From assembly GCA_947034885.2 (NCBI GenBank), contig OX344755.2:21645052-21709051 (forward strand): a DNA stretch of 64,000 bases. Reading direction: 5' to 3'. Every line of letters begins with the position of its first letter. Position 1 is the stretch's first letter. The notes under the pieces were generated by a model. It was given only the letters and a program-made list of their open reading frames with translations. It did not search any database and had not been told where the DNA came from. A program made the position numbers and the translations under genes. Source of the DNA: Thuidium tamariscinum (taxonomy: Eukaryota; Streptophyta; Bryopsida; Hypnales; Thuidiaceae). Positions 23,921 through 62,845 of the stretch are shown one piece after another.

Positions 23921-25454
23921 GTGTTCCGGGCCTGCGTGGTGAGGCATCTCTCTTCATCCAGCTCCTCCTGAGTGTGATGGAGCTCCCTCCTCAGGGCTGA
24001 GACTTGATTCGTCAACCGGAGTACCTCCTCTCTGTCCCGACTATCATGTGCCTCCTGAATCAATTCTCCCAACACCTCTATGATCTTGGAGGGAGGGATA
24101 GAGCCTAGGGCTTGGCTTATGCCCCGCAACAACCCTCTCTCCTCCAAGTGGTGCTTTCTGAAATCCTCCAGGTCTCGCAGGATCCTTAGCAAGGGATCCT
24201 GTTCCCAGACCGGATCTAACCTCTAGGCTTCCCCGGCTACTACAGGGGTTTCTAGAGGAAGATCCTCTCTTCCTACCTCCGGAACCTCGTCTACCTCCTG
24301 TGTGCCTCCTTGATGCCCCTCCTGACTCTCATCCTCGGAGTCCTCCTCATCTTGGTCATTTTCAGCTTCCGGGTCTGCAATCTCATACTCTATCAATGCA
24401 GCCCCTACCTCGTAAGCTTCCATCTCCTTCTCTCTCAAGAGGTCTAACGAATGATATAGATGGAACAGGAATGGTGAAATGGGAGAGGGTTTAGATTTCC
24501 CAATTCCTTTCACCATTCGGTCCATTCGGTCCCTCATAACTAACCCCCAATCTATCTTCCATTCTCCCGACAGCGCACCAAAGACGGTGTTGGCTACGGT
24601 GACCGTAATCCTACTAGGTCTATCCGGGTTCAAGATCGCCATCATGAACCGCAGTAGCCTCTTGTGTCTAGCAGACACACACTCTGCTACCGTAAAGCCG
24701 TCCTTCGGGTTGGTGGGCCTGTGGAACTTCCCCTGGTGGAATTTGTTCGTCCGGGTGCCCGTCGCATCTCCGCCTTGCTCGAAGGCGTACACCTTGCGCT
24801 ACATCGCTGCACTCCACTCCTTTGGCAGCGCCCGGACCGTCCCCTTCCACTCGTTGGTCTGGTCGGCCAGTAGCTCCTCCACCATCGCCTCATCCTTCAG
24901 GTTCCAGGGATGAGCCATGAATCCCTCGCAGCCCATCTGCCTGAGGTCTTCCTCCAGCTCCCGCTTGTCTTGTGCGTCAGTTGGCACGACCGGATTCACA
25001 TTCCGGAAGGCTAGAATCCTTCCTTCCTGCACCTCTTCTGCCATCTCTCACTTGACGCCTACACAATCTAGGCGCAGTCCAACTTGACTGAACCTCCCGC
25101 GCTCAAGAACTTGTCAGCTAGCGTAGTGCTAATCGCTCAACTATGTACCAGACCGGATTGACAGATTATCTATCCCTTCTCTCTGTCTGTAGACCGAATA
25201 CTCTATCTCTGGCCGGAAACCCTTTCTTGAACTGTGTGCAAGAAAGTGGCAGGACCTGGCCCTGCTTCCAGGGTTTTCTTGTCGGACATATTTTTGGGTT
25301 TTGGTGTCGTATAGGACATCTGACGTCGCGTGTCGCAGGTGACAACATGTCGCTACCCCGTCGCAGCCCGTCGAGTAAGGTAAAAAAAATTTACCCTACG
25401 GTAAATGGATTTGGCATACGTGGCAGATTGTTCAGAGTGACGTGGAACTTTAAG

Positions 25455-25975
25455 TAGGCGACTTCGGGTGGGGCGACTGCGCTTCAAGATAGGGCGACCA
25501 CGTGTCTAATTTTGAGGGCGACCTCTTGTCGAGGGGCGACCTCGGGTGGGCGACCTCTGGTTTGGGGGCGACTTCTTATCAAGAGGCGACCGCGGGTGGG
25601 CGACCTCTGGTCTAGGGGCGACCTCTTGTCAAGGGGCGACCGCGGGTGGGCGACCTCTTTGTTGCAATTGTCAAAAAAACACTTAAAACTGCCATTTTTA
25701 GTACAAAAAACAAAAAAAATTAGAAATGAATTTTTTTTCATATATAATGGTAGGATCTTGTAATATTATAGTATGAGAATATGTGAAAAAAATTTCAAAA
25801 ATTTTCACCACACAGATTGCAAGATAATTGCATTCAAAGTGTAGAAATTATGTTTTGGGGGACTCTGGCGACCTCGGGTGGGCGACCTCTTGTCTAGGGG
25901 CGACCTCGGGTAGGCGACCTCTGGTCTAGGGGCGACCTCTGGTCAAGGGGCGACCTCGGGTGGGCGACCTCTTTG
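25455..25975. repeat. left GC-rich array, GGGCGACCTC motif
   Basis: About twenty copies of a 12-16-bp phrase, GGGCGACCTCTTGTC with variants (GGGTGGGCGACCTC, CTGGTCTAGGGGCGAC), fall in two clusters (25455-25660 and 25868-25975). The same motif is repeated at 30507-30725 and, inverted, at 33477-33600, so it marks one element family. Subterminal repeated motifs of this sort are commonly transposase-binding sites. Confidence 0.85.
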
Positions 25976-26165
25976 TTGCAATTGTCAAAAAAACACTTAA
26001 AACTGCCATTTTTAGTACAAAAAACAAAAAAAATTAGAAATGAAATTTTTTTCATATATAATGGTAGGATCTTGTAATATTATAGTATGAGAATATGTGA
26101 AAAAAATTTCAAAAATTTTCACCACATAGATTGCAAGATAATTGCATTCAAAGTGAAAAAAAAAT
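25661..26165. repeat. 314-bp tandem duplication with AT-rich core motif
   Basis: The stretch beginning GTTGCAATTGTCAAAAAAAC at 25661 recurs nearly unchanged at 25975, together with the GC array before it. Each copy contains the core phrase GTAGGATCTTGTAATATTAT followed by TGTGAAAAAAATTTCA and GATTGCAAGATAATTGCATT. That core also occurs at 6.2, 38.3, 47.4 and 48.35 kb. Confidence 0.85.
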
Positions 26166-27339
26166 GTTTTAGGGGACAATGACAAACTAAGGTAGACATG
26201 CCTATTTGCAATCTAGCTATATTGGAGTCAATTCTAAGAGGGGTACATATTTATTTGAAGTGTGCACATGTTTCTTGAATCAAACCCAAATGAAATTATA
26301 ATTTTTCAATCAAAATCGTAATTTCTATGAATTTTTGAAGTAGACAATCCTAAATTACAAAACCGCCTTTAGGCTAGGATCATAAACAACTTATAAACAT
26401 TGTATAACCACCTAATCAACAACTAGATATTTTCTATTTAAATAGTGACACATTACTCCAACTTGTCATAAAATCCTTGATTTTGTCATAGAATGAAGGG
26501 AATTTGGGGGGGGAGGTAGAAATGGGGCCAAAACTAGAGTGACGGAAATAGGCTAGTCTAGTTGGTGGAATAGAGTTACAAATGGAAATGGGTTGGTCTA
26601 CTTTAGCTTAAGAGATTTGATTTTCTTAACTTAAAAAGTTTTCACTTTAGATCTTAACTTAATATATCATTCAAAATTAAGTTGAGAATGTAGGAAAAAT
26701 AATGTGGTTGTCATTTTATTTTAAATTATTAAGTAGAAGGTACATCATAGAGGAAAAAAAATAATAGCTCTAAGGTGGAAATGTGGAAATAGAAATTCTA
26801 ATCCCAATGGTGAGATTGTTTGATTAATCAATGCTAATACTACAAAACTGCTTTTTTTAAAATTAAAATTGAAGTAAAAAATGAATCCTATCTCAAACAA
26901 TTTCAAAATCTTATTATTATTGCCCACAAAACAAAATGATTCATAATCTTTGCATCACCAATCTAAATAAAATGAATCAAAGTTCTAAGAAGACAAAATT
27001 ACAATCTATAAGAAAAAAAATTTAATTTTTGTGGATTTGTTTTTACCTACATAATTTAGATCTAAGCTTATTGTGATATGACTCTTGCTTTTAGACACTA
27101 ATTCAAATAAAACTACATTTCTAGAAAGCCAATAAGATTCTCTATCTTATAATAATGTTTCAAAAAGTTCCATAAAAATTTGACATTATAGGAACTTGTA
27201 CAAAATCCACTTTACCCCCTTGTAGAGACAATGAAACTTTAGAAGATTACAATCTACTAATGTATTACTTATCAAAAAGATTTTGAAATATAAAATTATG
27301 GATTGTGATTTTTTTAAAATCATCCCCATTTGATTTTTT

Positions 27340-30150
27340 CTAATCTCCAAGCATCATTATATTCTTATATTTCTTAGCAAGTTAGCATCTTCACCTAAAT
27401 TTAAAAATTAGAAGAAATAGATTTGAATTAAAACTTCTCCGTGTAATTTATGTAAAAGTCAAAGAATCATTCTAAAACTGTATTATTAACTAATTCGATT
27501 TCAAAATACAAAATAATGAATGGATATTTGTGTAAGAACTTCATCACTTCAATTTTTCTATTTTTCAAGCATCATTATATTTATGTATAATTTACCACCT
27601 TCACCAAAAATTTTAAAACTAGAGGGAAGAGATTATTTTAACTTAGAACTTCTCTTTTGTTTATATATAAATCTCATAGTCATTCTAATTGTGTGAAATT
27701 TATAACTCAGGAGGGGGGGCACTCCTGGTTTATTTAATTATAGCGTGCAATCAAATGAAAGGTGCTTTTAATTCCCTTAGCCTAAATTTTAAACAATTTT
27801 TAGAAATAAATTAGCATCACTAAAATGAGCTATTATCATTATAAATAATGAAGGGTAGAAAATAATACACAACTTTATCAAATTTGTTTTTCTAAATAAG
27901 GGTAGCCAAAAAGGATCTCTAGAAATTTGAACTTTTATGAAGTATACTAAGTTTGAAATAAGGAATCCTATGAGCTAAATACTATGAGAGCATGAGCTCT
28001 ACATGTAAATGAGAGTGACAACTAATGGGTGACAACTAATGGTGACAACTAATGGTTGTGCTCTTATGAGTACTCACACTTTGAATGTGTTTGAATGAAA
28101 TTGTTTAAAATGGAAGTATTGCTTATCTAGTCTCTAGCCTCTACATGTATCACATGTTTAGTCAAAGTTTTAATGACAAATTCTTTTTTCTTTGTAATTA
28201 TTTGCAAAAAAAATGCAGGTCTTTCTTATGTATAATGAACATAGTGTATAATTAATTAGCACCCAAGAAAAATTCAAAATAAAGATAGGGTTATTGAAAT
28301 TACCTAAGTTTAAAAATTTAGGTAAAGATAGGTCTATTTTAATTCACCAAATGTACCTACATTGCCCCCATCTTATAAGGGCTTGAATGCACGTCATGTC
28401 CTAATATATTACAAAGTGCATCCCCGGGGAGGACACTTCTTGTATATTTGGAGGATCCACGTGCGGCGGTGGGGTATTTTTAGGGGGGGCTATCAATTAC
28501 TTGTAATCATTACTTGGCAACATTAAAAGAGCTCCTATTTTACCATAAAGCGGAAAAATCAGCCATATTATAATCCCTATTTTATTTTTAAAACACTTTG
28601 CCTTTTTAATGTCCCCTATTTTATATGTAAATTTCTTATAAATTTTACCTAAGATTATTTAAATGTACCCTATATTCCGCCGCATGTAGGTTATTAAAAA
28701 ACGGGAAGTGTCCTCCCCTAGAGTGCATCCCCCAAGATTTATAAAGTGAATTATAGGATACAAAATAATTATTAGAATTTTGTGTAACTAAAAACTTCTC
28801 CATTTGAATTTTTCTATTTTCCAAGCATCAACATATTCATGTATTCTTCATTACCTTCACCAAAAGCTTAAAAACTAAAAAGAAGAGATTCAGATGAAAA
28901 CTTTCCCTTTTCATCTAATCAAATCTTAAAGTCATTCTAATGATGTAATATTTATTAAGTGAATTTTAGAATAAAAAAGAATGCATGGATATTTGTGAAC
29001 AATCTTCTCCATTTAAAATTCTCTATTTTTCAAGCATCATTATATTTGCGTACTATTTATCAATCTCCACCTTCAACAATAAATCAAAAATAAAAATGAA
29101 GAACTTTAAATTAAAAAAATTTAATTTTTATTTCTACAAATGTTATTTGAAGGCTCATCCTAATGGCAAATTATTTATCAAGCAAATTTTAGAACTCAAA
29201 ATAGGGGATGGAGACTTTAATAACAACTTGCCTATTTCAATTTTTCCTATTTTCAAACCATCATCATTGTCATGTCTTATTTAGGCACCACCTTGATTTT
29301 ATCCTAAAAATTAGAGGGAAGAAATATAAGTGAAACTTCTCTTTTTTATTTATACAACTTTATTTTGAAGGCTTATCCTCATGGTGGATTATTCTATCAA
29401 ATAGATTTTAGAACTCAAAATAGTAGATAAAGATTTCAATAACAATTTGCCCATAAGCCCATTTGAATTTCTTCATTTTTCAAGCATCATGATACTCATG
29501 TTTTATTTAAACACAACCTTAATTTTGTCTTTAAAATTAGAGGGAAGAGATTAAAAAAATGAAACTCTTGTTTTAGATTTATGCAACTTTAATTTGAAGG
29601 CTCATCTTTTTGGTAAATTATTTATCAAGTGGATGTTAGAACTCAAAATAGTGGATAGAGATTTCAATAACAATTTACCCATTTGAGTTCTCTATTTCCA
29701 AAGTACCACCATACTCATATCTTAATATTTCACCACCTTCATCTCAATCCTAAAAATTAGTGGAAAGATATTTAAATGAAAACATTTGCTTTTTGACTTA
29801 CAAAAATGTCAAAGAATTGTTGTGGTAAAAAACATTTATCAAATAAATTCTAGAATACAAAATAATAGATTGAGATTTGTATAAGAAGATATCCATTAAA
29901 ATTTTCCATTCTTGAAGCATCATTCTACTCAAGTATTATTTACTACTTCAATTTAAGATTTTAAAATAAGAAGAAAGAGATTTAAATGATAACTTCTCCT
30001 TTTAGTTTATGTAAATGTCAATGAATCATCCTCATAGTGTATTGGATTTCAAAATACAAAATAATAAATAGAGATCAATGTAGATTGTTCCCCATTTAAT
30101 TTATCAATACATTAAAAATTACAATTCCATTTACATAAACATTCATACAA
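27340..30150. repeat. degenerate satellite, about 220-bp unit
   Basis: The phrase CAAGCATCATTATATTCATG and its neighbours recur at about 27347, 27578, 28832, 29030, 29255, 29477, 29698 and 29912, spaced 198-231 bp. Each unit also carries ACTTCTC(T)TTT, AGAATCATTC, and ATTTTAGAATACAAAATAAT phrases. The array is interrupted at about 27690-28770 by unrelated DNA that includes a 297-bp miniature element. Copies are well diverged, so the array is old. Confidence 0.8.
28426..28722. mobile_element. miniature inverted-repeat element with 10-bp target duplication
   Basis: The left end GGGGAGGACACTTC and the right end GAAGTGTCCTCCCC are inverted copies, with a second pair CATGCGGCGG/CACGTGCGGCGG further in. 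GTGCATCCCC flanks the element on both sides (28416-28425 and 28723-28732). A 9-10-bp duplication points to a Mutator-like mobiliser. No coding sequence is inside. Confidence 0.75.
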
Positions 30151-30506
30151 TAATAAATTTCCCTTTCCGCAAAATCTGAATCCTCAATGAAAGTTGTGAC
30201 CTTATCACTCCAATTATCCAGTAGAAAGAACTCATAGGTTAAATTAGGTACACAAAAATTAAAACCTTACTATAGACAATCGAAAGTAAACAAATCTTGA
30301 GAAGAGCTTTGATATTTAGCAAATGAGATTAGACATTTAGCCATTTAGGCATTGAAGTCTAATTTCAAACATAAACATTTTCTTAAGTCACCAAACATAG
30401 AAGGTACATTAATCAATTCAGAAATTGAAGCAAGTGTAAGTACTCACAATGAGCTAGACTCTTCTTTCCTTCCATTTTTCAAAAAAATGCCATACTCTAT
30501 GTTTCT

Positions 30507-30725
30507 TTCGCGACCACTTCTCAAGGGCAACCTCTTGTGGGCGACCGCGGGTGTGGGGCGACTGAAGGTAGGAGAATGCGGGTCTAGGACGACCGCGGGT
30601 GGAGGTGGGAGCCATTCCCTCAACCAAGTTCAAAAAAAGTCATTTTGGGGCCATTTTGGGCCATTTTGGGGCGACTTCGGGTCTTGGGGCGACCTCTTGT
30701 GGGCGACCGCGGGTGTGGGGCAGTT
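30507..30725. repeat. internal GC-rich array, GGGCGACCGCGGGTG motif
   Basis: Two clusters of the same GGGCGACCTCTTGTGG and GCGACCGCGGGTG phrases as at the ends of the surrounding element. In the neighbouring large elements the internal arrays sit at promoters. Here no gene survives beside it. Confidence 0.75.
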
Positions 30726-30799
30726 GGAGGTGGAGGTGGGAGCCATTGCCTTGCCTTTTGTAACATTCTCTTTTATTTTGGATTTTTTTTGGCATTAGA

Positions 30800-32520
30800 T
30801 TGAGATTTTGCAACTTGTTTACTATTTTTCCTAAAAATTAAAGAATTGTTGGTAGATGACTCTAAAATTATTCTTTGTGAACAAGTGATAACATTTAAAG
30901 AAGAGTATAGAGAGAATGCAAGCAAAGTATAAATATACAATGGAATCTATTTTGTTTTCTATTGGAAAATTTGCCAACTTGATGAAAATTAATTAATAAT
31001 ATGGAAAAATACAATAGTGAAGTATTTGAAAATACATCAACATTAAGGTGCTTAATGAGGAAGTTGGGTGTATTGCTTCGAAGAAGCAAATGACAAATGG
31101 ATAGTTGGTGAATTTGCTTACAGATAAACTATGGTTGATGAAGCTCTTGAAAATAGTTTCCCCCACCCATTATTTTGTAATAGGACATGATATTCCTATA
31201 TTACCATAAATGGGTAGGCCACATTGCATGCCTCTAAATTTCAAAAACTAATGTAAATAAATTAACAAATTCTTTATGATGTGCCATTTAGAAAAATATG
31301 TTGAATATCTTGTATGCAAGGTGATAAGGTGTTGAGATCTATGCATAGAATCTCAAATTTGAATTCTCTTGTGCAAATATTTTGTAATTTTTGTTATAAA
31401 ATTTACTCTCATTTGTTCATTCCTAAATTACTGCATGAAAAAGTCTACAAAATGAAATTGAAATATAACATGTAAAGAATCAAGAATCCCCTTGTCTACA
31501 TATAAAGCTATGATTCATTTTATTTGGACTAATGATTAAAAAATTATAGATAATCTTGTTTTTTGAGCAATTATAGAAACTTCTTGAAAAATAACGTATT
31601 AGATTTCATTTTGAATGCAATTTTTACAAATTTTCTAAAAAATTATTTATCAAGTTAAAATTTTCTTCCTAGAAAAATCACACAATTAGAATTTATGTGA
31701 TTCAATTCTATCCTAGAGCTATCAATAATTTATTTTTTTGTTCAACCTATTTCTACTTAACAATTTGTAAACCCCTAAGTACTCACGTGGCTTTTTTTTA
31801 GTTGTTGCTTGACTTTGGGTAGAATTTTTGGGCATTATATTTTTTTTCAATTTAAAAAAATTGGATTGTCTTTCAACATTTACATTCAAAACTAAGATCA
31901 ATGTGATCAAACAAAAATTATAAGAAAAATAGTAGGAAGTGTTTAGAATTGCATAGTGTTGAAAATTTTAATATTTGGAGAAAATTTTGATTCTTTCATT
32001 ATTAGATCTTTTTCATTTTTTCACAAATCAATAGAAACCACAATTTTGACCAATCCAAAAAAAATCAAGTGCTAAAGATGAAATTTGTATTTTTGGTGAT
32101 TTTTTGAAGTTATATCTTCAAAATTCATTTGAAAATAATCTAAAAACAACTTTAAAACTCTACCTATATAGATACTTTCTATTTTTTGTGTTTCATATAA
32201 TCTTTTTTGATGATAACTTCAAAAAAGTTATAGAACTTGTATTTTATCACATTTGCATTTTGTCCTAACCTTTTGGGCTTTTAGGGGTTAGAGATTGAAA
32301 ACAAATTTGTTTTTTTGGAATTTTTTTTCTTAGACTTTTAAATCAATTTTTTATTATTATAATATAACATAAAAAACAAAGTCTATAGTGCAAAAAATTT
32401 CCATGAATTACAATCAAAGTCATTGAAATTGTAGTCCAACATTCAAAATTTTATTTTTCCAACTTGAATGCTAATATCTTCTAATGGGTGATTGCAAGAA
32501 ACACTTGTACTATTTGTTGC
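30800..32520. other. AT-rich interior of the large element
   Basis: I see no gene. Positions 32340-32500 hold a poor copy of the AT-rich core motif (CTATAGTGCAAAAAATTTCC and AATGCTAATATCTT). Everything else looks like unstructured AT-rich sequence. Confidence 0.5.
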
Positions 32521-32521
32521 G

Positions 32522-33314
32522 TTTTGTCACACCTTAGATTTTGATTTTTTTTTAGCCATAAATTTTGTGTTTTAGCTTCAAATGATTCAAAATTTATTGG
32601 GAAGCTACTCATGGCTATTATGTATCTATAATGAATTTTGGAGATTTTTCAAAAATAACTTATTATTTTTAAATAGCCCCAAAAATTTCTCACAATACTT
32701 GATTTAGGGATTTTTAGCACCATTTACCTCCCCCCAAAACGAATTTTGACCTAAAATTTAGAAAAGATGGTCTCTTAGTATATTTATAGCTACTGTCTAA
32801 ATGAATTTTCAAAATAGACTTATTTTTATGTATTGTAGAAGTCCACAAAAAGAGCTTCATTTTGCATTTTTTTCCAAAGGTATAAAACATTATTTTAGTG
32901 AGTTTTTTGGTCAAATCTCATCTCCGCAAAGTTTTTCCAAATGATGTATTTTTATGTATTTTAAGAAAAAATGCAAAATGAAGCTCTCTTTGTAGACTTC
33001 TACAACACATTAAAATAAGTATTTTAAAAATTCATTTAGACAGTAGCTTTAAGTCTACTAGGAGACCATCCTCTCTAAATTTTAGGTCAAAATTCAGTTT
33101 TTTTGCAGGTAAATGGTGCTAAAAACCCCTAAATCAAGTATTGTGAGAAATTTTTGGGGCTATTTAAAAATAATAAATTATTTTTGAAAAATCTCCAAAA
33201 TTCATTATAGATTTATAATAGCTATGAGTAGCTTCCCTACCAATTTTAAGTCCTTTGGAGCAAAAAATAAAAAGTTATGGCCAAAAACAAATAAAAAACT
33301 AGGGTGTGACAAAA
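32522..33314. repeat. 793-bp foldback element
   Basis: Two arms of about 350 bp are inverted copies over almost their whole length. The left begins TTTTGTCACACCTTAG and the right ends CTAGGGTGTGACAAAA. Shared blocks include GGAAGCTACTCATAGCTATT and ATGAATTTTGGAGATTTTTC. The centre (about 32880-32950) is single-copy. The transcript would form one long hairpin, a typical source of small RNAs. No coding capacity is seen. Confidence 0.85.
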
Positions 33315-33476
33315 GGCTTTAAGTGTTTCTAAATTTTTATTTTTTGTATTCTTAGATGAGTGCAATTTTTTTAATAGCATTAGAAGAGGTCACCTTCCTT
33401 TCTTTTTAATGCAATGGGGTTTCCCCATTTGCTAAAAATAAAAATAAAAAAAATAAAAAAAAATAAAAAAAGGAAG

Positions 33477-33600
33477 AGGTCGCCCCTACCCGAGGTCGCC
33501 CCCACCCGAGGTCGCCCCCACCCGAGGTCGCCCCTACTCGAGGTCACCCCCACCTGAGGTCGCCTCTACCAGAGGTCGCCCTCTACCCGTAGTCGCCTAT
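33477..33600. repeat. right GC-rich array, inverted GAGGTCGCCC motif
   Basis: Eight or so copies of CCGAGGTCGCCCCCAC lie in the opposite orientation to the left array at 25455, as expected for the two ends of a single element. Confidence 0.85.
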
Positions 33601-33894
33601 CTTTTTTAGACCTGCATGCGCCTCCCAAATGTAATACGTGGATGCCACATGGCATCCAGGTGGCGTTATTTACTATGTGGTAAATTTTTAAAAGTCAAAG
33701 GTAACTTTGACTCTATTGGACGTCGCGAGGGTAACCACGAGACGTCGTGTGACGTCTGGTTGTCGCGATGTCGCGTTGTCGCCAGAGAAAACCCTGGCTG
33801 TGTGCCAACCAGGTCATAAGAGCAGAGATCAACAAGGAAAAGTGACCTTCAAATACACGGCTTGTGCTATATACTGTGAAGGCCTGGTAGCAGT

Positions 33895-34450
33895 CGTCCA
33901 GTCGACGGCCTATCCGTTGGCGCACTGTGGACAGCCGCGGACGGGACGTCGTGGCCGTCCCCGCAGATGCTCTAGCCGTCCAGCGGACGTCCCGCTGTCC
34001 AGACGACGGCCTGGCCGTCCCCGCAGCGTGGACAGACTCTGGACGCCGTGACCGTCCGCTGAACGGAAAACTGTCGAGGCGACGGCCTGGCCGTCCCGTC
34101 GAAGTGCACAAGCCGCGGACGCTCTGGCCGTCCAGACGACGGCCTGGCCGTCCCCGCTGCGTGGACGGACTCTGGACGCCGTGACCGTCCACTGAACAGA
34201 AAACTGTCGAGGCGACGGCCTGGCCGTCGCGCCTAAATCCTAAAGCCGCGGACGCTCTGTCCGTCCACGCGACGGCCAATCGTCGAGGCGGCCAACGGGC
34301 CGTCTGAGCGTTGTCGACGGACTTCATCCGCGTTGTCGACGACGCCGTCAGCATTCGGGACGGCCTCTAACGCGTCCTGCCGCGTCACGACTGACGCGTC
34401 ATGACATCCCGACGGGAAAAGCCCACGTCACGTCAGGATAGACAACCCTG
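33895..34450. repeat. GACGGCCTGGCCGTCC array ending in a CAGGGTTGTC terminus
   Basis: Imperfect tandem repeats of roughly 120-170 bp contain the palindromic phrase GACGGCCTGGCCGTCC and CCGTCCACTGAAC. The stretch finishes with GACAACCCTG at 34441-34450, the mirror of CAGGGTTGTC at 49168 and close to the CAGGGTTTTC of the element to the left. This looks like the right end of another large element whose left end I cannot locate. The long GC-rich open frames here (both strands) are artefacts of the repeat. Confidence 0.7.
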
Positions 34451-34518
34451 TTGTCTAGGGAGGGACATGAGATTCTGAAGGCAGTGGTTGGACTCTAGTT
34501 TCTTCCGAGGGTGGCTTC

Positions 34519-36730
34519 ATCCGGAGATCTCCGGATACCTGGTTTTGCTTATTGATGGGATGTACTAGTGTACAATTATAGATGAACAATAATTTCTGCA
34601 ACTTCAACTTAGCGGAATTTTGTAACCTTACTTTCACTACATGTCCCCTGTTGGAACTTGTATATAGATAGGTGGATGAGGACATTGCAGTTGTATTTTG
34701 AAGGTTGTCATAAAAAAGAAAATTTACACATGCGTATTACTGTGTTCTTCATTTCAAGTGGGACATCCAAGTTTTCTTATTCCTCTGTTATGATCCATTT
34801 GGAAATCTCCCGCTATTATTTGCTTGCTTGTGCATTATTCTTACCACGAGAGGAATATGGTCAGAATATGATCAGAATATTACTGACTACGTTGGACTGT
34901 TGATAGTGATTAATGATGCCTTTGTAGACATACACTAATTTATGACTTCAATTGTTCATAGACAGTTGCACTTAGTAAGTAATTTGTGTATTTTACCACC
35001 AGTGATATCCGCTCTCCTTGGTACAATTTAATGTCCTACAAATGAATTCCAAGTCTACTGTCTTGAACAGGAACCTCAGTGTGAAATGTGTCTACATATG
35101 ACTTCCTCCGTGTACATCTTATGTACTCCATTGTCTTCTACACTTATACGCCACCCATATTCATCGGGAGTTCTCCCGATGACTGGAGGTCCTCCTTTGC
35201 ATGTAGAATTGACTACTGTAGTGAATGGGTCTTGGCAGAAGGCGTTGCTCGTTGTTTTGACTGGTGCGTTGTGCGTTGAAGGCGGTGTCGCGGATCTCCC
35301 TCACGATATCAACATACTGGATGGTTTTAACGAGTTTTTTCAATACCTTGTTGACAATTCTCACTAATCACTATGGCCTGTGGTCATGCATGCGTGCTTC
35401 GACTTTGTCGGAGCTTGTTCGACGTCTTTTACGACAAAATATTATAGACCGGTTCCTTTTCATATCCAGTGCCGAAACTCCTGACAAGAACGATCCCTAT
35501 CCGAATCGTGTAGCAATGTTGGAGCATGTTCTAGGTAGTCCTCGATTGCGTAGGGTTCTTTGGAATCAAACTATTGCATTGCTTGAGGTAGATCCTCTGA
35601 ACTGGCAACGTCCACGCGTTATAGGACCGTGGATACGTGTGGGAGATGATGTAGATCTTATCAAATTGCAACGTCCCTACTACATAGGACCAGAATTGAA
35701 TATAAGGGGAGAAAGATACCATGAAGTGCACTAGTGGTTATAATGAAGGCACATGTTTGTAATTTTTGGTATGAAAATTAGTAAAATATGGTGACCCTTT
35801 CTTCTCCACCCGACTGTAACTAATTCCTATGTACCAAATGTTTGTCATTCACTTGTCATTCACTACATTCTCTTGTAATGTTATGAGAATTGCATCCGGA
35901 GATCTCTCGACCAATCCAGTGAAGCCTGAAGTAAAGCTTTCTTATTTATGTTAAAGTAATCCCTAGTTCATTGCCTCGGGGCAACTCAAAAAAGTCCAAA
36001 TGTCTGTTCTTCCCTTTCATCGGAAAATCTCCTGATGATTCATATTCCTTTCTATGTACAAGTAAATGTAGTCTTCTTGTAGGCTATCCAATTGGGACAA
36101 GAGAATTGTTTAGACTTATATCAATTGGATTTGGGTTCAGTCCTGGCTTTCTTGCAACATGGGGAACCTCCATTATGTGTTGTTCCCTTACATCGGGAAA
36201 TCTCCCGATGATTTTCTCAAGTATTACATGACTGTACCTTGATGAAGCTCAATGTACTTCAATTAAGTTAAGTTAAATTCAGTTAAGTTCAATGTACTTC
36301 TCCAATTCCCTAAACTCCAAGAACCTCTATTATGTGCTATTTCCATGTTCATCTGGAAATCTTCGGATGATTCATCTCAAGTACTATATATAAATTAATG
36401 AAGTTTGATGTACTTCTCCAAGTCCCTAAACTCCAAGAACCTCCATTATGTGCTATTCCCTTGGATCGGAAAATCTCCAGATGATTCATCTCAAGTACTA
36501 TGTATAAATTAATGAAGTTCAATGGAGTTTTCCAATTCTCTAAACCCTAAGAACCTCCATACTGTGCTATACCCTTACATCGAGAAATCTCCCGATGATT
36601 CATCTCAAGTATTCTATATAATTTGATGAAGTTGGGTGTACTCCAACTCCCCAAGTCCACAAAACCCTACTTATATTGCAAAATATAGAATCTAAAACCC
36701 TATTTAATATGAAAAATCTCCCGATAGTAC
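34519..36730. repeat. dispersed palindrome family, CATCGGGAAATCTCCCGATG
   Basis: Eight or nine copies of a 16-20-bp palindrome occur. They are ATCCGGAGATCTCCGGAT, perfect, at 34519; CATCGGGAGTTCTCCCGATG at 35162; imperfect copies at 35893 and 36018; CATCGGGAAATCTCCCGATG at 36191; and variants at 36350, 36464, 36578 and about 36712. From 36191 onward they sit in tandem units of 114-159 bp that also share GAACCTCCATTATGTGCTAT before and ATTCATCTCAAGTA after the palindrome. Some base changes are matched on the other arm, as at 34519. Confidence 0.8.
35088..35734 (+). pseudogene. unrecognised gene remnant
   Basis: Two overlapping plus-strand frames (35088-35279 and 35264-35734) together have coding-like composition and could be one gene with an intron or a frame break near 35270. 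The second frame encodes SELVRRLLRQNIIDRFLF, then ALLEVDPLNWQRPRVIGPWI and LIKLQRPYYIGPELNIRGE, an internal repeat of the QRP--IGP phrase. It closes with a TAG at 35732-35734. I do not recognise the family. A TATATAG near 34660 and the GC-rich array at 33.9-34.3 kb lie upstream, as for the other element-borne genes. Confidence 0.35.
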
Positions 36731-36749
36731 CATGACAAAGTCCAGATTT

Positions 36750-37400
36750 AACACCAAAGTCCGAAAGTAGTTAAATATGGCATTCATTTGGAGTTCTACA
36801 ACATGTAGAAAACAATTAGTAAGTAGAAAGAGGTAGAAAATGAATCAAAATATTAAAATAATAATAATTAATTTTTGAAATTGAAAATTTCCAATCCCAA
36901 TGGTTGTAATGTTGTAATAGACAATCTTCACCTAATGTGTTTATTTTTTTTCAAAAATATTAAAAATTGAGTAAAATAATGGACTTCAAAGTTTATTTTG
37001 GAGTAGAGATTCCATAACTTCCCACAAACTACCTTCAAACTAAAACTCCCATAACTTTCATTTCACAAATCAAAATGGAATAATTAAAAGCTTTCTAAGT
37101 AGATAAAAATCTAAAGAATGAATTTCAAATTTCAAATTTTTGAAAAAGTGATTTTTGAATAAGTTTTCAGCTGCCTGGGTTGCCCGCCGAGCAAAAGAAA
37201 TCACATATCATGCAATAACTTTTTATTCATGTTGTCAAAAGTTATGAAAATTGTTGGGCCTTAAAGCTACTCCTCGAACACACGTTGTATGAGAATTTCA
37301 AAGAAAAAAAATAAAAACTCCATTCTTAGTGAGCTGCCCAAAATTGCTATGTTGCCAAAAAACGCAATTTGGGCGTTTAGGGGTTAAACATTTCAATGTT
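36750..37400 (+). repeat. 0.95-kb AT-rich repeat family, partial copy
   Basis: This stretch matches 47640-48240 in direct orientation over about 600 bp, roughly 75-80 percent by eye. Shared blocks include CCCAATGGTTGTAATGTTGT, CAAAAATATTAAAAATTGA and GTTGGGCCTTAAAGCTACTC, and both end with GCCAAAAAACGCA and TTTAGGGGTTAAA. No coding sequence. Confidence 0.8.
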
Positions 37401-44193: not shown

Positions 44194-44227
<34 letters not shown>

Positions 44228-49150: not shown

Positions 49151-49177
49151 ATATCCCCGCTCGTAAGCAGGGTTGTC

Positions 49178-49392: not shown

Positions 49393-50025
49393 GGACCACC
49401 TTAAAATTAATTAATATGCTTCTACATATTTCCTTTTTATATTCCATATTCCCACTTTCCTAGTCACTCCAACACTTTATATTTTTCTTAATGTTACATC
49501 ATATCACTCTAATTAGTCTAATACCCAAACCATTTTCATATCCAAATTACTCCACCATTCCATTTTTTTTAGGTGTGAAATTACATCATTCTAACATCCA
49601 AACCATTTTCATATCCAAATCACTACACCATTTTATATTTTTAGGAGGTGTTAAATTACCTCACTATAACATGCAAACCATTTCCATATCCAAATCACTT
49701 CTGCATATGTGACTCCTAAAACATAGGCATAGTGGAAAAAATCAAGTGTATGCATTTTTATACCAAACTATTGCATCCATAGTTTTCATTTACGTTTTAT
49801 CATCAATTCATAGAAGTCATAAAAAATGCCATGAGGAAAGACCAATGAAAGGGCATATTAATATATTTTGGGATTTTGAGTATGGTACACAATTACACAT
49901 CCGATTTAATATATATTCAAGCTGTTTGGCAATTGCCAAGTAGGTACATAGGCTCCTCTACGAGGATGATTTTCTTCTATGCCTGAAATATATGCTAAAC
50001 TACAAAAAATATTAAAAACAAAATA
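49393..50025. other. 3' flank of kinase gene
   Basis: AT-rich, with three diverged tandem copies of a roughly 65-bp unit at about 49500-49700 sharing CAAACCATTTTCATATCCAAA and CATTTTATATTTTTAGG-like words. No gene. Confidence 0.6.
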
Positions 50026-50565
50026 CTATGTACGATAACAACAATCCGGCATCGTCCAACAGTGGGGGGCCTTCTTCAATTTCTCTAGAACATCTGGCAC
50101 TGTTGCCCTTTCACGCACATCTTCTTTTACGAGGCTTCCCAATTTGATCATGAAATTCTGATACTGCTCTGGGTTTTTCGTTGTGAAGTATTTAGGGTCC
50201 CACTCTTCTTTCCAAATTGCAGAAGCTATCCATCCCACTGCATATGCATCAGCTGCCATAGAATACAAATGCGTTTTTTGCATGGCCTCAATGGAGTTTG
50301 ATGAACCCTGCTCTCCGTATACATAAAACAATTCTGGGGCTGCAAACCTTCGCTTTTTTTTCTCCTTCGCAAGGATCTCCATACTGGGATAGCCATACCT
50401 TGATGGTTCCTTCTCCACAACTCGGCTAGAAAGTCCCCAATCACATATCCCTATGTACACCCTATTTCGTTCCCAAGGATCAAAATGGAGCAAAACATTG
50501 GATGGAGATATGTCGTTGTGCATGTACTGCGCATCATGGCATTTCCCCACAGTGACAAGTAATGA

Positions 50566-53500
50566 TGTCGTAGCACAGGAAAGCACAATTCCTTCTCTAA
50601 GGCTTTAGAATGCACTAAATTAGCCTTAAAGTGACTCGTGTATCGTTCCCAAGAGATTTGGTCGAAAGTTGACGAAAGACCGGAATACGTTAGTGGTTAT
50701 CACAACAAAACCCAAGCAAAAGACTGATCCGGTCTTGGTCTCCAACGTTCCTAAGATTTCCTTGGACCTGATTACCAGATCAATCCTTTATCCTTCCAAA
50801 CTAAGTCTATCTATCTATACCTGTATGTTCACCACCTTGATGCTTACGCTCACTAGATATGGGACTAAAGACCGGATACTAGTAGCTGGTCCAATCCCTA
50901 GTATAGTAACCAAGTGTAAGTTTAACCTCGATAACAAGAGGGATCTGCTTGTTTGGGCGTTTAGGAAGGAAGCTTACTCCTACCCTTCAAGTTTTAAAGT
51001 ATCAGAAGTTCCACTTATGAATAAAAAGAAACTACTACTACAAACAGACCGGAATATCTCACAACTGGACCGGGACTAATCCGACCCAGCAGGTCACGCA
51101 AGCACTCCTGCCTAATCCTAACAAAGACTACAACGACGGAAGAACCAGTTAGTCTAATCCCTGGTAGAATAAGGGCGGTAACTTATGCAAGAGAGCTGAA
51201 TTTCCTCACTTAGTCCTTCTTTCTTCTACAGAGACCGGATCACCATTCAGTTGGCATTTGGCCGGACGCTCCCGATCTCAAACCCAGACTCTACAAGTGT
51301 CTATCTCTATCAAAAACTCCCTAGACCAGTTTCAGAAAGCACTGTGGGATCCTGCACAAATTCCCTATCAAAACCGAATTCACTTTAAGTCCAGAGACCG
51401 GATAAACTGACCATCCGGGCACACACTTATCCACACAAGGTTGCAATCCTAACCATCACCATAAGACTTTGACAAGGTCTCATGCACACAGTCCACTTCA
51501 AAGTGAATCAGAAAGGTTCTGACTTGTATTTGCAACACAAAAACTTGTGAAAGTAAGATAACATAATGCGCGCCCGAATTCGATTACGAACCGGGTTTAA
51601 ATACTAAACTGCAAGAAAATCTAAAAGTGCAAATGGAATCAACACCAGCCGCCAAGAATGCCACCTCACATTCCTCTACAACTTGGGTAGGTTGACTTCC
51701 ACAAAACTACAAAAATACCAACAAAATAGGATCACAGATCCTACATATCTGGATCCGGTCTAAGTTCAAAAGTTCCTAACCTAAATATAACTTGGTTTAG
51801 CCGCCTTCCTATCTACCTGTAATTAATGCCCCCTATTTCCTCGCCTTCTTGAGAGGCGACGCACCTTTCCGGGCTGGCTGCTTCTTCGGAGACCGGTACA
51901 TCTTGATGGGCTTGGGTTTCGGTTTGGTCTTACCCCGCGCCCTGGCCCTGGTCTTCGTGGTCTCTGCCAATGCCTGGTCCGCATCTGAGTACTGTTCCGA
52001 CTCATCACCGGAGTCGGTCTCTTCCTCCGAGTCCTCATCTTCCTCATCTGACTCCTCTTCCTCTTCATCCCGGGCCTTCCGCTTCACCTTGGATGTCTCC
52101 GCGGTCTTCTTCTTGAATCCAGTGATGGGCGGGTGGTGCACTATCTTGCTTTGCGGGGTCTGCTCCCCCACTCTCTCGGCAGTCCGGGCTGGTCTCTGGC
52201 TTGGTGACCCGGATCCAGATCCGGTCTTCAGTATAGAGCGGACCTGCACCGTTGCCTTCGCTTCCCCTCCGGTCTTTGGTTGTGTGATGACCGTGGGTGA
52301 TGACTTGCTTGGAGAATCATCCAACAAGGTGATGAACTTGGTCTTCTCCCTTGGTGGTGTAGTTCCCCGGATTATCTCCCTCAACACAATCGGCTCGGGT
52401 TCCGGCTCCTTGGTCTTCTCGGGTTGAGAAACCCTGGGCTCTTCAATCCGGGCCGGTGGGACAGATTCCTCCTCCACTGCGTCGGTCCTGGTTCCTTCTT
52501 CCTTCGCCGGTTCAGATATGCCGGCTTCTACCTCGACAGCTGCTAGTGGTGGCTGATCCTTCGGTTGCTCCTTCTCCATCTTTGTCTCTTCCGGTCCTGA
52601 GACCGGAGCAGAACTAGCTTGGACCTCCGTGACTACTGACCGCCACTTCTCCAGCGCTGCCTCCATTTTCTTGTTGTAGGCCACCAGAGCTGTAAGCATC
52701 TGAGGACCCACCATCTTGCCTGCTTCCAAGACCTTCCTGTCGAAAAGCATGGCTTTGTTGACGACTTCACCCGGATGCGTGATGAACTCTCGGATTTCTC
52801 CGAGTGTGTTCCGGGCCTGCGTGGTGAGTCGTCTCTCTTCATCCAGCTCCTCCTGAGTGTGATGGAGCTCCCTCCTCAGGGCTGAGACCTGATTTGTTAG
52901 CCGGAGTACCTCCTCTCTGTCCCGACTATCATGAGCCTCCTGAATCAATTCTCCCAACACCTCCATGATCTTGGAGGGGGGAATAGAGCCTAAGGCTTGG
53001 CTTATGGCCCGCAATAACCCTCTCTCCTCTAGGTGGTGCTTTCTGAAATCTTCCAGGTCTCGCAGGATCCTTAGCAAGGGATCCTGTTCCCAGACCGGAT
53101 CTAACCTCTGGGCTTCCCCGGCTACTACAGGGGTTTCTAGAGGTGGATCCTCTCTTCCTACCTCTGGAACCTCCTCTACTTCTTGTGTGCCTCCTTGATG
53201 CCCCTCCTGACTCTCATCCTCGGAGTCCTCCTCATCCTGGTCATTTTCCGCTTCCGGGTCTGCAATCTCATACTCTATCAATGCAGCCCCTACCTCGTAA
53301 GCTTCCATCTCCTTCTCTCTCAAGAGGTCTAACGAATGATACAGATGAAACAGGAATGGTGAAATGGGAGAGGGTTTAGATTTCCCAATTCCTTTCACCA
53401 TTCGGTCCATCCGGTCCCTCATAACTAACCCCCAATCTATCTTCCTGTCTCCCGATAGTGCACCAAAGACAGTGTTGGCCACGGTGACCGTAATCCTACT

Positions 53501-54481
53501 AGGTCTATCCGGGTTCAAGATCGCCATCATGAACCGCAGTAGCCTCTTGTGTCTAGCAGACACACACTCTGCTACTGTAAAGCCGTCCTTCGGGTTGGTG
53601 GGCCTGCGGAACTTCCCTTGGTGGAATTTGTCCGTCCGGGTGCCCGTCGCATCTCCTCCTTGCTCGAAGGCGTACACCTTGCGCCACATCGCTGCACTCC
53701 ACTCCTTTGGCAGCGCCCGGACCGTCCCTTTCCACTCGTTGGTCTGGCCGGCCAATAGCTCCTCCACCATCGCCTCATCCTTCAGGTTCCAGGGGTGAGC
53801 CATGAACCCCTCGCAGCCCATCTGCCTGAGGTCTTCCTCCAGCTCCCTCTTGTCTTGTGCGTCAGTTGGCACGACCGGATTCACATTCCGGAAGGCTAGA
53901 ATCCTTCCTTCCTGCACCTCTTCTGCCATCTCTCACTTGACGCCTACACAATCTAGGCGCGGTCCAACTTAACTAAACCTCCCGCGCTCAAGAACCTGTC
54001 AGCTAGCGTAGTGCTATTCGCTCAACTATGTACCAGACCGGATTGACAGTTTATCTATCCCTTCTCTCTGTCTGTAGACCGAATACTCTATCTCTGGCCG
54101 GAAACCCTTTCTCGAACTGCGTGCAAGAAAGTGGCAGGACCTGGCCCTGCTTCCCTGGTCTTATACTTTTTCCCCCGGCATTAATTACTGACCGTTAGGT
54201 TTAAACCAGTCTGGTCACGTGGGAGAGATCCCGACGATCTCTAGACTCGGTAGCCACTCATTACCTATCCGGTCTCGGTCGCTAGGTGGGTGGAATCCGG
54301 GATTTCATACGCTGTCCCTTAACGTAGTTTCTGGTTTACGGTCCAGGGTCTTCCGGTTTCCGGTCTTGGTCCCAATTATGTGTAGAAACTAAGAAAACAA
54401 AAAAAAAAAATGGGGATTGAATAGATCCCTCTTCCCGTATTTTGCTTAAGAACCTGCTTAGGTGAATTCTAGGTTGCCACA
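50566..54481 (-). mobile_element. LTR-like unit, copy 3, whole, with 5-bp target duplication
   Basis: The unit is 3916 bp. It begins TGTCGTAGCACAGG and ends TTCTAGGTTGCCACA, with AATGA on both sides (50561-50565 and 54482-54486). The ends match those of the unit at 19928-23920 in opposite orientation. The body is nearly identical to copy 1 (17.8-25.3 kb). As there, only one reading frame is present, no polymerase genes are seen, and no internal duplicate of the ends was found. It therefore looks like a solo terminal repeat or a small dependent element. It appears whole and recent: clean duplication, open frame, high identity to copy 1. Confidence 0.7.
51833..53929 (-). CDS. LTR-unit protein, 698 residues, subfamily B
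   Basis: The frame is open from an ATG at 53927-53929. Domain order: a conserved N-terminal domain to about residue 235, sharing HPWNLKDEAMVEELL, TVRALPKEW, RTDKF, NPKDGFTVAEC, VANTVFGALSGDRK and SPFLFHLYHSLDLL with the 638-residue protein; an acidic DE-rich stretch; a coiled coil with EELDEERRLTTQARNTLGEI (about residues 355-400); the NKAMLFDRKVLEAGKMVGPQ block, also shared; a long proline/glutamate-rich disordered region; an EEEESDEEDEDSEEE acidic run; and a basic tail (SPKKQPARKGASPLKKARK). The tail and length suggest a chromatin- or nucleic-acid-associated protein. Function unknown. The frame runs opposite to the kinase-disrupting unit's TGTCG-to-CCACA reading, as in the nested copy. Confidence 0.65.
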   Translation of the reverse strand: MAEEVQEGRILAFRNVNPVVPTDAQDKRELEEDLRQMGCEGFMAHPWNLKDEAMVEELLAGQTNEWKGTVRALPKEWSAAMWRKVYAFEQGGDATGTRTDKFHQGKFRRPTNPKDGFTVAECVSARHKRLLRFMMAILNPDRPSRITVTVANTVFGALSGDRKIDWGLVMRDRMDRMVKGIGKSKPSPISPFLFHLYHSLDLLREKEMEAYEVGAALIEYEIADPEAENDQDEEDSEDESQEGHQGGTQEVEEVPEVGREDPPLETPVVAGEAQRLDPVWEQDPLLRILRDLEDFRKHHLEERGLLRAISQALGSIPPSKIMEVLGELIQEAHDSRDREEVLRLTNQVSALRRELHHTQEELDEERRLTTQARNTLGEIREFITHPGEVVNKAMLFDRKVLEAGKMVGPQMLTALVAYNKKMEAALEKWRSVVTEVQASSAPVSGPEETKMEKEQPKDQPPLAAVEVEAGISEPAKEEGTRTDAVEEESVPPARIEEPRVSQPEKTKEPEPEPIVLREIIRGTTPPREKTKFITLLDDSPSKSSPTVITQPKTGGEAKATVQVRSILKTGSGSGSPSQRPARTAERVGEQTPQSKIVHHPPITGFKKKTAETSKVKRKARDEEEEESDEEDEDSEEETDSGDESEQYSDADQALAETTKTRARARGKTKPKPKPIKMYRSPKKQPARKGASPLKKARK

Positions 54482-55684
54482 AATGACAATGCCAATTTCA
54501 CTCGATTTCTCCGATACGTTGCAACCCATGAAAGTTCCTCTTTCGTTAGCCCCGTAGAAATGTCATTCTCAATCTCATTCAAATCCAGTGCTTCGCTCAC
54601 TTTCGCATTGCATTTGGACAAGAAAGAAATTAGAGATCCTCCATTCCACCATAGTGTGTAGCCTTCCATTGTTTTAGGGTGGAGGTACGCAATTCGAATG
54701 ATGCCAGGATGATTCACTGGACACCCTCCTACCTCATTGATGATTGCTTGGCGTTTCTCCTTTTCATTCTTAGTCTTCAAGCTCTTCCCAGCAAAAAATA
54801 TCCAACTAGGAATGCTCTCAAGTTTCGTAAAGATCACCTTCCTCACGGTCCCATACGACCCAATCGCAATTTGTTCCGGCATGGGGATGACTTTCACGGA
54901 ACTTCCTAGCCACTTGAATGTTCCACTCACGCAATGAGCCGTTATCGCTTCTTCAATTGTCACTTTCCATGGTGCTTGCTTTTTTCTACGTGAAGAAGAA
55001 TATCGTTGAGCAAACGTTTGAATCTCCTTCACTTTTGTAACCATCTCTCTGTCCTCCGTGTCCCAGTCGCTACCATCTTCTTTCTTACCCGTGTGATAAC
55101 ACCAATTACACACTATATTGGTTGTCAAGGCGACCACTTGTTTATCCAGCCACTCTTGGTGCAACCAATAATCTGAGAAGTTGTTGAATTCTTTTGATTC
55201 TTCAAACTTTGACTCCAGCTCCCTTCGCAGGTCCCTCGTCAGTTTGTGGTACCCTTCTTCGTTGAGCGACACATACTCCCTGTTCAACATATTTGTACTT
55301 CGACGAGTGTAGAACACCACAGCTATTTTTCTCCCCTCGACTATGAATTCATGTCCAGGTATTTGGGGATTTTGTTCTTTCTTGCGTTTTTTCTGGCCTG
55401 ATGAGGAAGGATTTGATGAACCTGAGGCCATCAACGTGTTTGTACATGGAATTACCGTCTCACCGATATCATCCAAGTCTACAAACATAGGACGTTTGTC
55501 CACCGATCCACTCCCTTCACCTGCCATAATGGAAAAAAAAAGTTCCAATAGGCCTCCGTATCAATCCCGAAGCAAGAAAGTTTCAAAAAAATTCAAAAAA
55601 ACCGGGTCACATATGCAGGCCAAGCCCAGCACCCACCAAACTCACTCGCATAGGCCGTGGGAACGAACTAGCATGTGAGGCATA

Positions 55685-55985
55685 GGGCGCGGACTTGGCA
55701 AAGGAATGAGGGCGGGGACCCGCTTTATATAGTCCCCCCCCGCACGTCCCCGCCCCATCCCCATCGCGTTCCCGCCCCAACACGTGGAGTCCCCGCCCTG
55801 ACACACGCGTCCCCGCCCTGACGGAGACGTCCGCGCCCCGACAACGAAGGAGTCCCCGCCCTGACGGAGGCGTCCGCGCCCTGACATCGATGGAGTCCCC
55901 ACCCTGACAGCGATGGCGTCCGTGCCCTGACGTCCCCCGCCTGCCCCTATATAAACCCGTCCCCGCCTCACTTGTCCCCGCCCTG
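55685..55985. promoter_or_regulatory. mirror-image bidirectional promoter with GTCCCCGCCCTGACG array
   Basis: Two TATA boxes face outward: TATATAAA at 55948-55955 on the plus strand, 131 bp before the RING ATG, and TATATAAA on the minus strand at 55724-55731, 197 bp before the kinase ATG. Both sit in the same context, CTATATAAA followed by CGGGTCCCCGCC or CCCGTCCCCGCC, so the core promoter is an inverted duplicate. Between them lie about ten copies of a 16-20-bp phrase, GTCCCCGCCCTGACG with GTCCGCGCCCTGAC variants, which could serve as shared upstream activating sites. Confidence 0.7.
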
Positions 55986-60760: not shown

Positions 60761-61229
60761 GGCGTACTGGAGGTCTACAATTTTTTGTTTAAATCTCTAC
60801 TACTTCTTTCATTTTAAACAAATTAAGTTTTAGCCTTGTATCTAGTACACTACATTTCCTCTATATTCCCTAAATATTTCCTCAAAATATCCGGAACATT
60901 TGCTAAATAGAAGAATTTAGACTTCTTTTTTTAAATCTAAAAATTCTTTTTAGTTCAAAGTACTAGTTTCTTCTTGGGGACACAAATAAGGTTCAAAGTA
61001 GTTCGGAGTGTTAGAAGACATAAGGAACGACATGTTCCACCACAACAAAGGGTACATGCTCTTCCACGAAGTTTCTTCCAAACCTTAGTCCATTGAGCTC
61101 TTCAATTTGGCATCTTGCTTTCATGGTCTTGTCGGAATGTTGAACAAGTTGTTCTTCCTAAAATTAAAGGTTCCCCCGCTCCAAGAAAAGGAAAGATTGA
61201 AGGATCTCATGACCGATCGCACTTCAAAG
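60761..61229. other. short non-coding interval
   Basis: AT-rich to mixed DNA between two repeat arrays. No exon or clear repeat seen. Confidence 0.4.
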
Positions 61230-62815
61230 TCCTCCCTCTTGTGCTGAATGCCCTGGCGTCCGCGCCCTGACTTCAAGTCCGCGCCCTGACATCAAGTCCG
61301 CGCCCTGGAGTCCGCGCCCTGACTTCAAATCCGTGCCCTGACATGAAGTCCGCGCCACGTATTAGAATTGTCCGCCCTCAAGTCCGCGCCCTACGTCCAC
61401 GCCCTGACATAGCCAATGTCACGAAAACATTGGTGAGAGAAAGCTTTCTTGTCTCTCCATCACTATAAAGAATCTAAAAGAAGGCATGACTGAATTTAAT
61501 GGTTCCTGGTTTCCATGAAAGGAGGGACACAATCTTGTAAGATCAATAAATAGGAGCAAGGAGGGATCCCATGCGGAAAGTCAACCTCATTTGCAGTGCA
61601 TGCACGTTTGCGCACCAAGAATGGTTCGCGCCCAGGAGTCCGCGCCCTGTCCAGGAGTCCGCACCCTGTGCAGGAGTCCGCGCCCTGACGTCCGCGCCCT
61701 CACCTGACGTCCACGCCCTGAGTAGCGCCAATGCAAGCCTCCAACTCCTTGGCTTCCCGGTTCTCATGCCCGATCGCATTTCAAAGTCCTCTCTTGTGCT
61801 GTATGCCCTGGCGTCCGTGCCCTCACCTGACGTCCACGCCCTGAGTAGCGCCAATGCAGTGAAGTTCAAGCCTTCGACTCCTTGGCTTCCCTGGTTCTCA
61901 TGCCCGATCGCATTTCAAAGTCCTCTCTTGTGTTGTATCCGTGCCCTGACTTCAAGTCCGCGCCCTGACATTAAGTCCGCGCCATGACACAGACAATGTA
62001 ACGAAAACATTAGTGAGAGAAAGCGTTTGTGTCTCTCCATAATATAGAAGACGGCATGACTAAATTTAATGGTTCTCGGTTTCCATGAAAAGGAGGGACA
62101 CCATCTTCCAAGAGCAATAAATAGGAGCAAGGAGGGATCCCATGCGGGAGGTCAACCTCTTCTTCTTTGCATGCACGTTTGCGCACCAAGAATGGTCCGC
62201 ACCCTGGAGTCCGCGCTCTGGAGTCCCCGCCCTGTGCAGGAGTCCGCGCCCTGGAGTCCGCGCCCTCACCTGACGTCCACGCCCTGAGTAGCGCCAATGC
62301 AGTGAAGTTCAAGCCTCCGACTCCTTGGCTTCCCTGGTTCTCATGCCCGATCGCATTTCAAAGTCCTCTCTTGTGCTGTATCCGTGCCCTGACTTCAAGT
62401 CCGCACCCTGGCGTCCGCGCCCTGACTTCAAGTCCGCGCCCTGACATTAAGTCCGCGCCATGACACAGACAATGTAACGAAAACATTAGTGAGAGAAAGC
62501 GTTTGTGTCTCTCCATAATGTAGAAGACGGCATGACTAAATTTAATGGTTCCCGGTTTCCATGAAAAGGAGGGACACCATCTTCCAAGAGCAATAAATAG
62601 GAGCAAGGAGGGATCCCATGCGGGAGGTCAACCTCTTCTTCTTTGCATGCACGTTTGCACACCAAGAATGGTCCGCACCCTGGAGTCCGCGCCCTGGAGT
62701 CCCCGCCCTGTGCAGGAGTCCGCGCCCTGGAGTCCGCGCCCTGTCCAGGAGTCCGCACCCTGTGCTGGAGTCCACGCCTTGAAGTCCGCGCCCTGACCTG
62801 GCGTCCCTCCAACTC
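61230..62815. repeat. tandem array of promoter-like modules with GTCCGCGCCCTGAC clusters
   Basis: Three large units (anchored by GGCATGAC at 61483, 62053 and 62529) are spaced 570 and 476 bp. Each holds clusters of AGTCCGCGCCCTGAC, then an ACGAAAACATT-GTGAGAGAAAG block, a TCTCTCCAT-TATA-like stretch, GAGGGACACCATCTTCCAAG, and AATAAATAGGAGCAAGGAGG. The first unit has CCAAT at about 61412 and CTATAAAG at about 61471; later copies are less clear. Short open frames inside are repeat artefacts. The GC motif is that of the kinase/RING promoter. Confidence 0.8.
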
Positions 62816-62845
62816 CTTGGCTTCTTTGGTTCAAAGGTTTTAGGA

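Follow-up and report, generated by a model that had tools for sequence, protein, structure and literature searches.

Members of the hAT superfamily typically end in CAGGG, as the CAGGG-type tips of Ac do, and duplicate 8 bp of their target (5-7 bp in some groups); in En/Spm, a CACTA element with TnpA sites, subterminal repeats overlap the element promoter. Binding of a hAT transposase to short subterminal motifs has been described for Herves (PMC3143072); in the VANDAL elements, VANC targets tandem arrays that lie in non-coding DNA, are specific to a family and differ from one related family to the next (PMC5735166). The hAT7 elements of rust fungi carry a gene for a TET/JBP dioxygenase with a possible role in silencing and have 7-bp duplications, according to PMC12730594. 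In the 64,000-nucleotide stretch of DNA analysed here (the window, to which all results and the labels U1, U3 and block D refer), neighbouring elements with hAT-type tips and the gene blocks beside them carry private GC-rich words, repeated near the ends and again at the promoters of transposase, RING and kinase genes. Each family may thus have a single DNA address of its own, serving both its movement and the control of its genes.

Compared with hAT elements that have subterminal repeats (Ac/Ds, Tag1, Tol2 and Herves), the units are alike in the CAGGG-type tips known from Ac, in a transposase gene with BED, DUF659 and dimerisation regions nearby, and in repeats close to the two ends of U1 and the left end of U3. 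They differ, however, in their long, GC-rich, family-specific arrays, in the presence of the same words at several gene promoters, in their RING and kinase genes, and in that no target duplication was found. With the Mutator-type VANDALs of Arabidopsis they share family-specific motif arrays of one orientation in non-coding DNA, but the superfamily is a different one: the tips and transposase of the units are hAT-type, and no match to a Mutator-type or VANC gene was found in the 10 proteins, 6 frames and 3 open reading frames (ORFs) scanned, all from beyond position 17000. En/Spm is similar in having subterminal repeats that overlap its promoter and differs in its tips, those of U1, block D and U3 being CAGGG and not CACTA, and in that the transposase here is hAT. 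The hAT7 elements are alike in that they are hAT elements with an additional gene, one with a possible effect on silencing, whereas the units sit in what appears to be a plant-type genome and carry RING and kinase genes; hAT-type elements bearing such genes would widen the known cargo of cut-and-paste elements.

The structure is real and coherent, and its ingredients are known singly from Ac, Spm and VANDALs. As far as narrow literature searches tell, it is the combination that is a new variant: hAT-type ends, private arrays common to ends and promoters, and genes for RING proteins and a kinase. Of the narrow phrase searches of open-licence papers for hAT elements with word arrays or carried genes, some returned nothing and others a number of papers, so that they are no proof of absence. 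Our preferred reading, to which we assign a probability of about 0.5, places the units in a hAT-type lineage of large DNA transposons, with private GC-rich words that an element-encoded protein reads at both the ends and the promoters.

Tips of the elements and kinship of the ends

The exact tip word CAGGGTTNTC occurs five times in the window against 0.64 expected, a number reached by 0 of 100 shuffles, while copies with one mismatch are found 16 times against 14.7 expected. As the one-mismatch count is that of chance, the exact words alone are informative, and further ends cannot be claimed from CAGGGTTNTC by itself. Four of the five (25269, 33796, 34441 and 49168) stand where the original prediction had placed them. 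The fifth, at 8487, was rejected as a further end; it lies in AT-rich DNA and has no array. The proposal that 34441 and 49168 are the two ends of one unit had to be abandoned, the tips facing away from each other and bounding nothing between them.

U1 is one element, and its border at 25269 is real. The left end opens with CAGGGTTTTC, and the right end, at 33796, repeats the same 11-bp tip with the array word inverted, so that U1 has short, CAGGG-type inverted tips (CAGGGTTTTCT at both ends). Its left flank belongs to an element, B1, of which a second copy, B2, lies elsewhere in the window; the two are 95.6% identical over 1365 positions, but where B1 reads CTGCTTC followed by CAGGGTTTTC, B2 reads CTGCTTC followed by CCTGGTCTTA and continues without CAGGG. 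The border is thereby fixed to the base, since the B2 copy of the flank runs on past the position corresponding to 25269 (the reported B1/B2 match extends 9 positions into the tip through partial identity). When the U1 left end was scored against 5028 windows, the best match was the U1 right end, with a score of 43 (mean 22.1, standard deviation 4.0), the next other place scoring 37. A palindrome of about 800 bp (83.5%) lies inside U1 at 32519-33317.

In the same comparison, positions 11-165 of the U3 left end found the U1 right end as its best match among the 5028 windows (score 71; mean 22.8, standard deviation 4.8), the reverse comparison returned the U3 left end (70; mean 23.8, standard deviation 4.9), and none of the 300 resamples by which pairwise likeness was judged reached the score. 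Being reciprocal best matches, these two ends are homologous, despite their different array words. Their motifs also stand in register, with AGTCAA 85 and 83 bp, TTGACT 99 and 96 bp, and CATGTGG 146 bp from the tip in both. The similar motif order noted earlier inside all ends holds for these two but not for the U1 left end, which has no AGTCAA/TTGACT and has ACGTGG at 150 bp, nor for the end at 34450, which has only a stray ACGTGG at 23 bp. Likewise, membership in one lineage stands for U1 and U3 through their reciprocally matching ends, but for the end at 34450 only the 10-bp tip is common.

Private words at ends and promoters

The features of the locus are collected in Table 1.

Table 1. 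Coordinates of the elements, arrays and genes in the window
Feature	Position	Strand	Remarks
U1, element with CAGGGTTTTCT inverted tips	25269-33796		left border from B1/B2 comparison
U1 left array, 13 exact GGGCGACC	25492-25969	+	reading inward
U1 internal GGGCGACC, 3 exact copies	30539-30708	+	
U1 right array, 5 exact GGGCGACC	33478-33581	-	reading inward
Block D, right end of another element, tip GACAACCCTG	33797-34450		GACGGCC-rich; left part outside window
hAT transposase gene, three ORFs	38932-41935	-	Pfam; ATG at 41935
Array upstream of hAT gene, 3 exact GCGGACGG	42238-42310		
RING1 gene, decayed, several frames	43310-46739	-	split by small inverted-repeat insert
GGACGGCC/GCGGACGG block upstream of RING1	46968-47159		
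U3 left end, tip CAGGGTTGTC	49168-49417	+	AGTCAA/TTGACT, CACGTGG/CATGTGG, then GGGCG[CG]GGAC
U3 kinase gene, 3' part	50026-50560	-	Pkinase 33.6 bits, cut-off 31.7
B2 inserted in kinase gene, TG..CA ends	50566-54481	-	intact 5-bp duplication AATGA (50561-50565, 54482-54486)
U3 kinase gene, 5' part	54482-55527	-	ORF and ATG
Divergent kinase/RING2 promoter, 9 exact GGGCG[CG]GGAC	55685-55983		
RING2 gene, open frame of 761 aa	56086-58371	+	homologous to RING1
U3 right arrays, 19 exact GGGCG[CG]GGAC	61258-62793	-	

The array words sort into three territories, and the prediction that each unit has its own repeated word was borne out. All 21 copies of GGGCGACC lie inside U1 and all 30 of GGGCG[CG]GGAC inside U3, with none in the inserted B2, while the 9 copies of GGACGGCC and the 8 of GCGGACGG are confined to 33797-34450 and to the hAT and RING1 genes or their surroundings (one GCGGACGG, at 41718, lies in hAT coding sequence). 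By comparison, 30 resampled windows held at most 2 to 4 copies of any word. A comparison of nine array blocks that counted shared 8-mers without chosen words, with 100 resamples per cell, joined the U1 blocks with one another, likewise the U3 blocks (three each), and the hAT promoter block with that of RING1, and in every one of these cells 0 of 100 resamples reached the observed sharing. At the two ends of U1 and at the left end of U3 (here with words at 49355 and 49375) the words point inward, and the core of each word is also found near the tips: the U1 ends hold 3 and 4 copies of GCGAC, which is absent from block D and the U3 left end, CGGAC occurs 7 times in the U3 left end against 1, 0 and 0 in the U1 left end, the U1 right end and block D, and GACGC occurs 4 times in block D and in no other end.

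Such arrays could be neutral minisatellites, in which an ancestral GC-rich end or promoter sequence was amplified by slippage in each family and nothing reads the words. Variable periods of the tandem repeats would fit, as would the resemblance of the U3 right arrays to larger duplications, but the occurrence of the same word in distant blocks of one unit (ends, interior, promoter), the fixed orientation from the U1 ends and the unarrayed word core near the tips speak against it, and we consider it quite unlikely.

Besides lying near the tips, the arrays were expected to stand beside TATA-like boxes of surviving genes, and arrays are found at both kinds of site. At the transposase gene, a TATA-like CTATAAGTA (42170-42162, minus strand) lies between the array and the ATG, and in the divergent U3 promoter one TATA box faces the kinase (55732, minus) and another RING2 (55947, plus), with words on both sides; CTATATAA, the TATA box, has only three occurrences in the window. 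The expectation failed at RING1, where none was found in the upstream block. TATA boxes beside arrays at three genes, together with the CACGTGG words near some ends, would also suit promoter elements bound by a host transcription factor, the copies at the ends then serving only as outward promoters. A host factor should, however, favour one word, whereas each block has its own, and U1 keeps arrays near both ends while no ORF of at least 150 aa lies wholly inside it, which makes this explanation very unlikely.

The transposase gene encodes a BED finger (41753-41935; 24.0 bits against a cut-off of 20.6), DUF659 (40630-41766; E 1.5e-33) and a dimerisation region (38932-40629; E 3.2e-8), and lies in the neighbourhood of the units, outside any unit bounded by these tips. 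RING1 contains a RING domain (28.7 bits against the Pfam cut-off of 27.3), and although the RING match of RING2 falls below that cut-off (25.0 against 27.3 bits, E 2.3e-5), a PDB sequence search with RING2 retrieved solved RING fingers (best E 1.7e-5, 17 matches at E up to 0.1), and RING1 and RING2 are homologous (E 1e-16 and 2e-15). In line with the predicted divergence between families, two neighbouring gene blocks have homologous RING genes but different promoter words. No Pfam match above the cut-off was obtained for the 5' part of the kinase gene.

CpG dinucleotides are retained in the arrays, with observed/expected ratios of 0.80-1.28 compared to 0.60-0.83 in genes and 0.22-0.44 in filler, although the words themselves account for part of this and the ratios of three array blocks (0.80-0.83) fall within the gene range. 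Such retention fits an escape from methylation, and could mean that the arrays are targets of an element-encoded anti-silencing protein like VANC, perhaps the RING protein, with the transposase using only the tip zone. At ends and promoters alike, the arrays occupy non-coding DNA, and VANC targets are likewise family-specific, non-coding tandem arrays of one orientation that change via repeat formation (PMC5735166 and PMC10398659). Against this stand the share of the CpG signal that comes from the words and the overlap with gene values, a RING protein that has no DNA-binding domain above the Pfam cut-off, and the extension of the word core into the tip zone, which speaks for a protein acting at the ends. 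We regard an anti-silencing role of the arrays as unlikely.

Proposed reading of the words and evidence against it

In the preferred reading, each family would carry a private GC-rich word whose core recurs here and there over the ~85 bp next to the tip and which is repeated in full from ~190-225 bp inward and again in the promoters of the transposase, RING and kinase genes. An element-encoded DNA-binding protein would read this word, the first candidate being the BED-finger transposase because a hAT transposase, that of Herves, binds short subterminal motifs (PMC3143072), and the second an anti-silencing protein like VANC. At the ends, reading of the word would bring the tips together for excision, and at the promoters it would set transcription. 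Because one protein would read many sites, the word would change throughout a family, while the tip layout and the genes stay recognisable.

A bolder version of the same idea, which we think rather unlikely, is a lock-and-key control that arose in a hAT-type lineage independently of the VANDALs, with one reader for each private word at the tips and at the transposase, RING and kinase promoters, families splitting through joint changes of word and reader, and RING and kinase proteins that act on host silencing. If word and reader do change together, the units would form a natural series for the simultaneous switch of specificity in a protein and its many sites and, if true, add a second superfamily besides the VANDALs for such switching.

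Several results weigh against the preferred reading. No target duplication of any length from 5 to 9 bp was found at U1, nor did the constant duplications expected of the units appear at any of the four tip pairs in the window tested over these lengths, of which the U1 pair is the sole true one. Nor does U1 lie in a clean insertion, being flanked by B1 on the left and by block D on the right with no duplication; the missing 5' part of B1 was not found elsewhere in the window. For these reasons we call U1 hAT-type and not a proven member of hAT. The duplication may be missing because of recombination between two U1 copies, an assembly join, or transposition using the ends of two elements, which is known for maize Ac (PMC8225341).

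The kinship of the ends is also incomplete. No likeness was detected between the left ends of U1 and U3, for which 74 of 300 resamples score as high, and beyond its 10-bp tip the end at 34450 does not resemble the other ends, its scores being reached by 26, 127 and 176 of 300 resamples. For U3 no right tip occurs before position 64000, and its right end is therefore either lost or beyond the window; the right arrays are oriented as a right end would require, but an array serving a rightward promoter would look alike, and there is a TATA-like box at 61464. Finally, no exact tips face the block 34451-49167, which holds the transposase and RING1 genes, and its connection to block D, made through word content, is the weakest link of the argument: block D shares 8-mers with the hAT and RING1 promoter blocks at 0 of 100 resamples in one direction, but at 10 and 4 of 100 when D is compared to the hAT and RING1 promoters, respectively, and its sharing with the U3 promoter is about as strong (2 of 100 in either direction). 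Since the genes have no tips around them and the link to D is one of word content, the transposase is a candidate for moving U1 and U3 only by inference. Smaller links cross between territories, mainly those of the hAT and RING1 promoter blocks with the U1 left array, which 0 of 100 resamples matched; U1 and the transposase block may thus have derived their words from a common origin.

Neighbouring elements and further observations

B1 occupies 17813-25268, where it is cut at the U1 border, and a further element, C (19928-23920), is inserted in it with a 5-bp duplication, GTGTT; a short stretch at the left edge of B1 (17658-17817) is bounded by inverted CACTATAA. B2 and C, of ~3.9-4.0 kb, have TG..CA ends and 5-bp duplications like solo long terminal repeats (LTRs), and no LTR pair was seen within either. 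The B and C elements have long ORFs of 698 and 638 aa that are 41% identical; a narrow phrase search of open-licence papers returned nothing on LTR-encoded genes. A relation between the N-terminal part of the RING proteins and these proteins was considered and found unsupported (hhalign probability 1.7%, E 0.029). Structure models of RING2 and the B2 protein had a mean predicted local distance difference test score of 40.8 and 35.8, respectively.

In the PDB sequence search, the 3' part of the kinase had no match at E 0.001 and the DUF659 exon one chance-level match. Viral contigs yielded no relatives of the DUF659 exon, the kinase 3' part, RING2 or the B and C proteins, and phage and prokaryote contigs none of RING2, these collections not being meant for plants. 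Scans of the window for Rfam families and tRNAs found nothing.

The insert inside RING1 spans 44026-44323 and has 31-bp inverted arms (44026-44056 and 44293-44323). AT-rich repeats of ~950 bp lie at 36784-38476, 47288-48239 and 48292-49150, with several ends reading TTAACCCCTAAAG or its inverse, one of them changed, and have the look of an element family flanked by TTAA. As subterminal repeats of the transposase block, the long repeats at 36784-38476 and 47283-49150 were rejected, since they resemble copies of a separate sequence. In the repeat copy beside U3, similarity to another copy is clear to ~49144 and weak from 49145 to the tip, and forcing a global alignment past the tip gives no clearer indication of a possible insertion of U3 into an AT-rich repeat. 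Just behind the last U3 array lies a telomere-like AGGGTTT run (62835-62885). A 114-bp tandem repeat and near-palindromic words, TCCGGAGATCTCCGGA and TCGGGAAATCTCCCGA among them, occur in the region 34451-36650, which is perhaps a further word array of another element.

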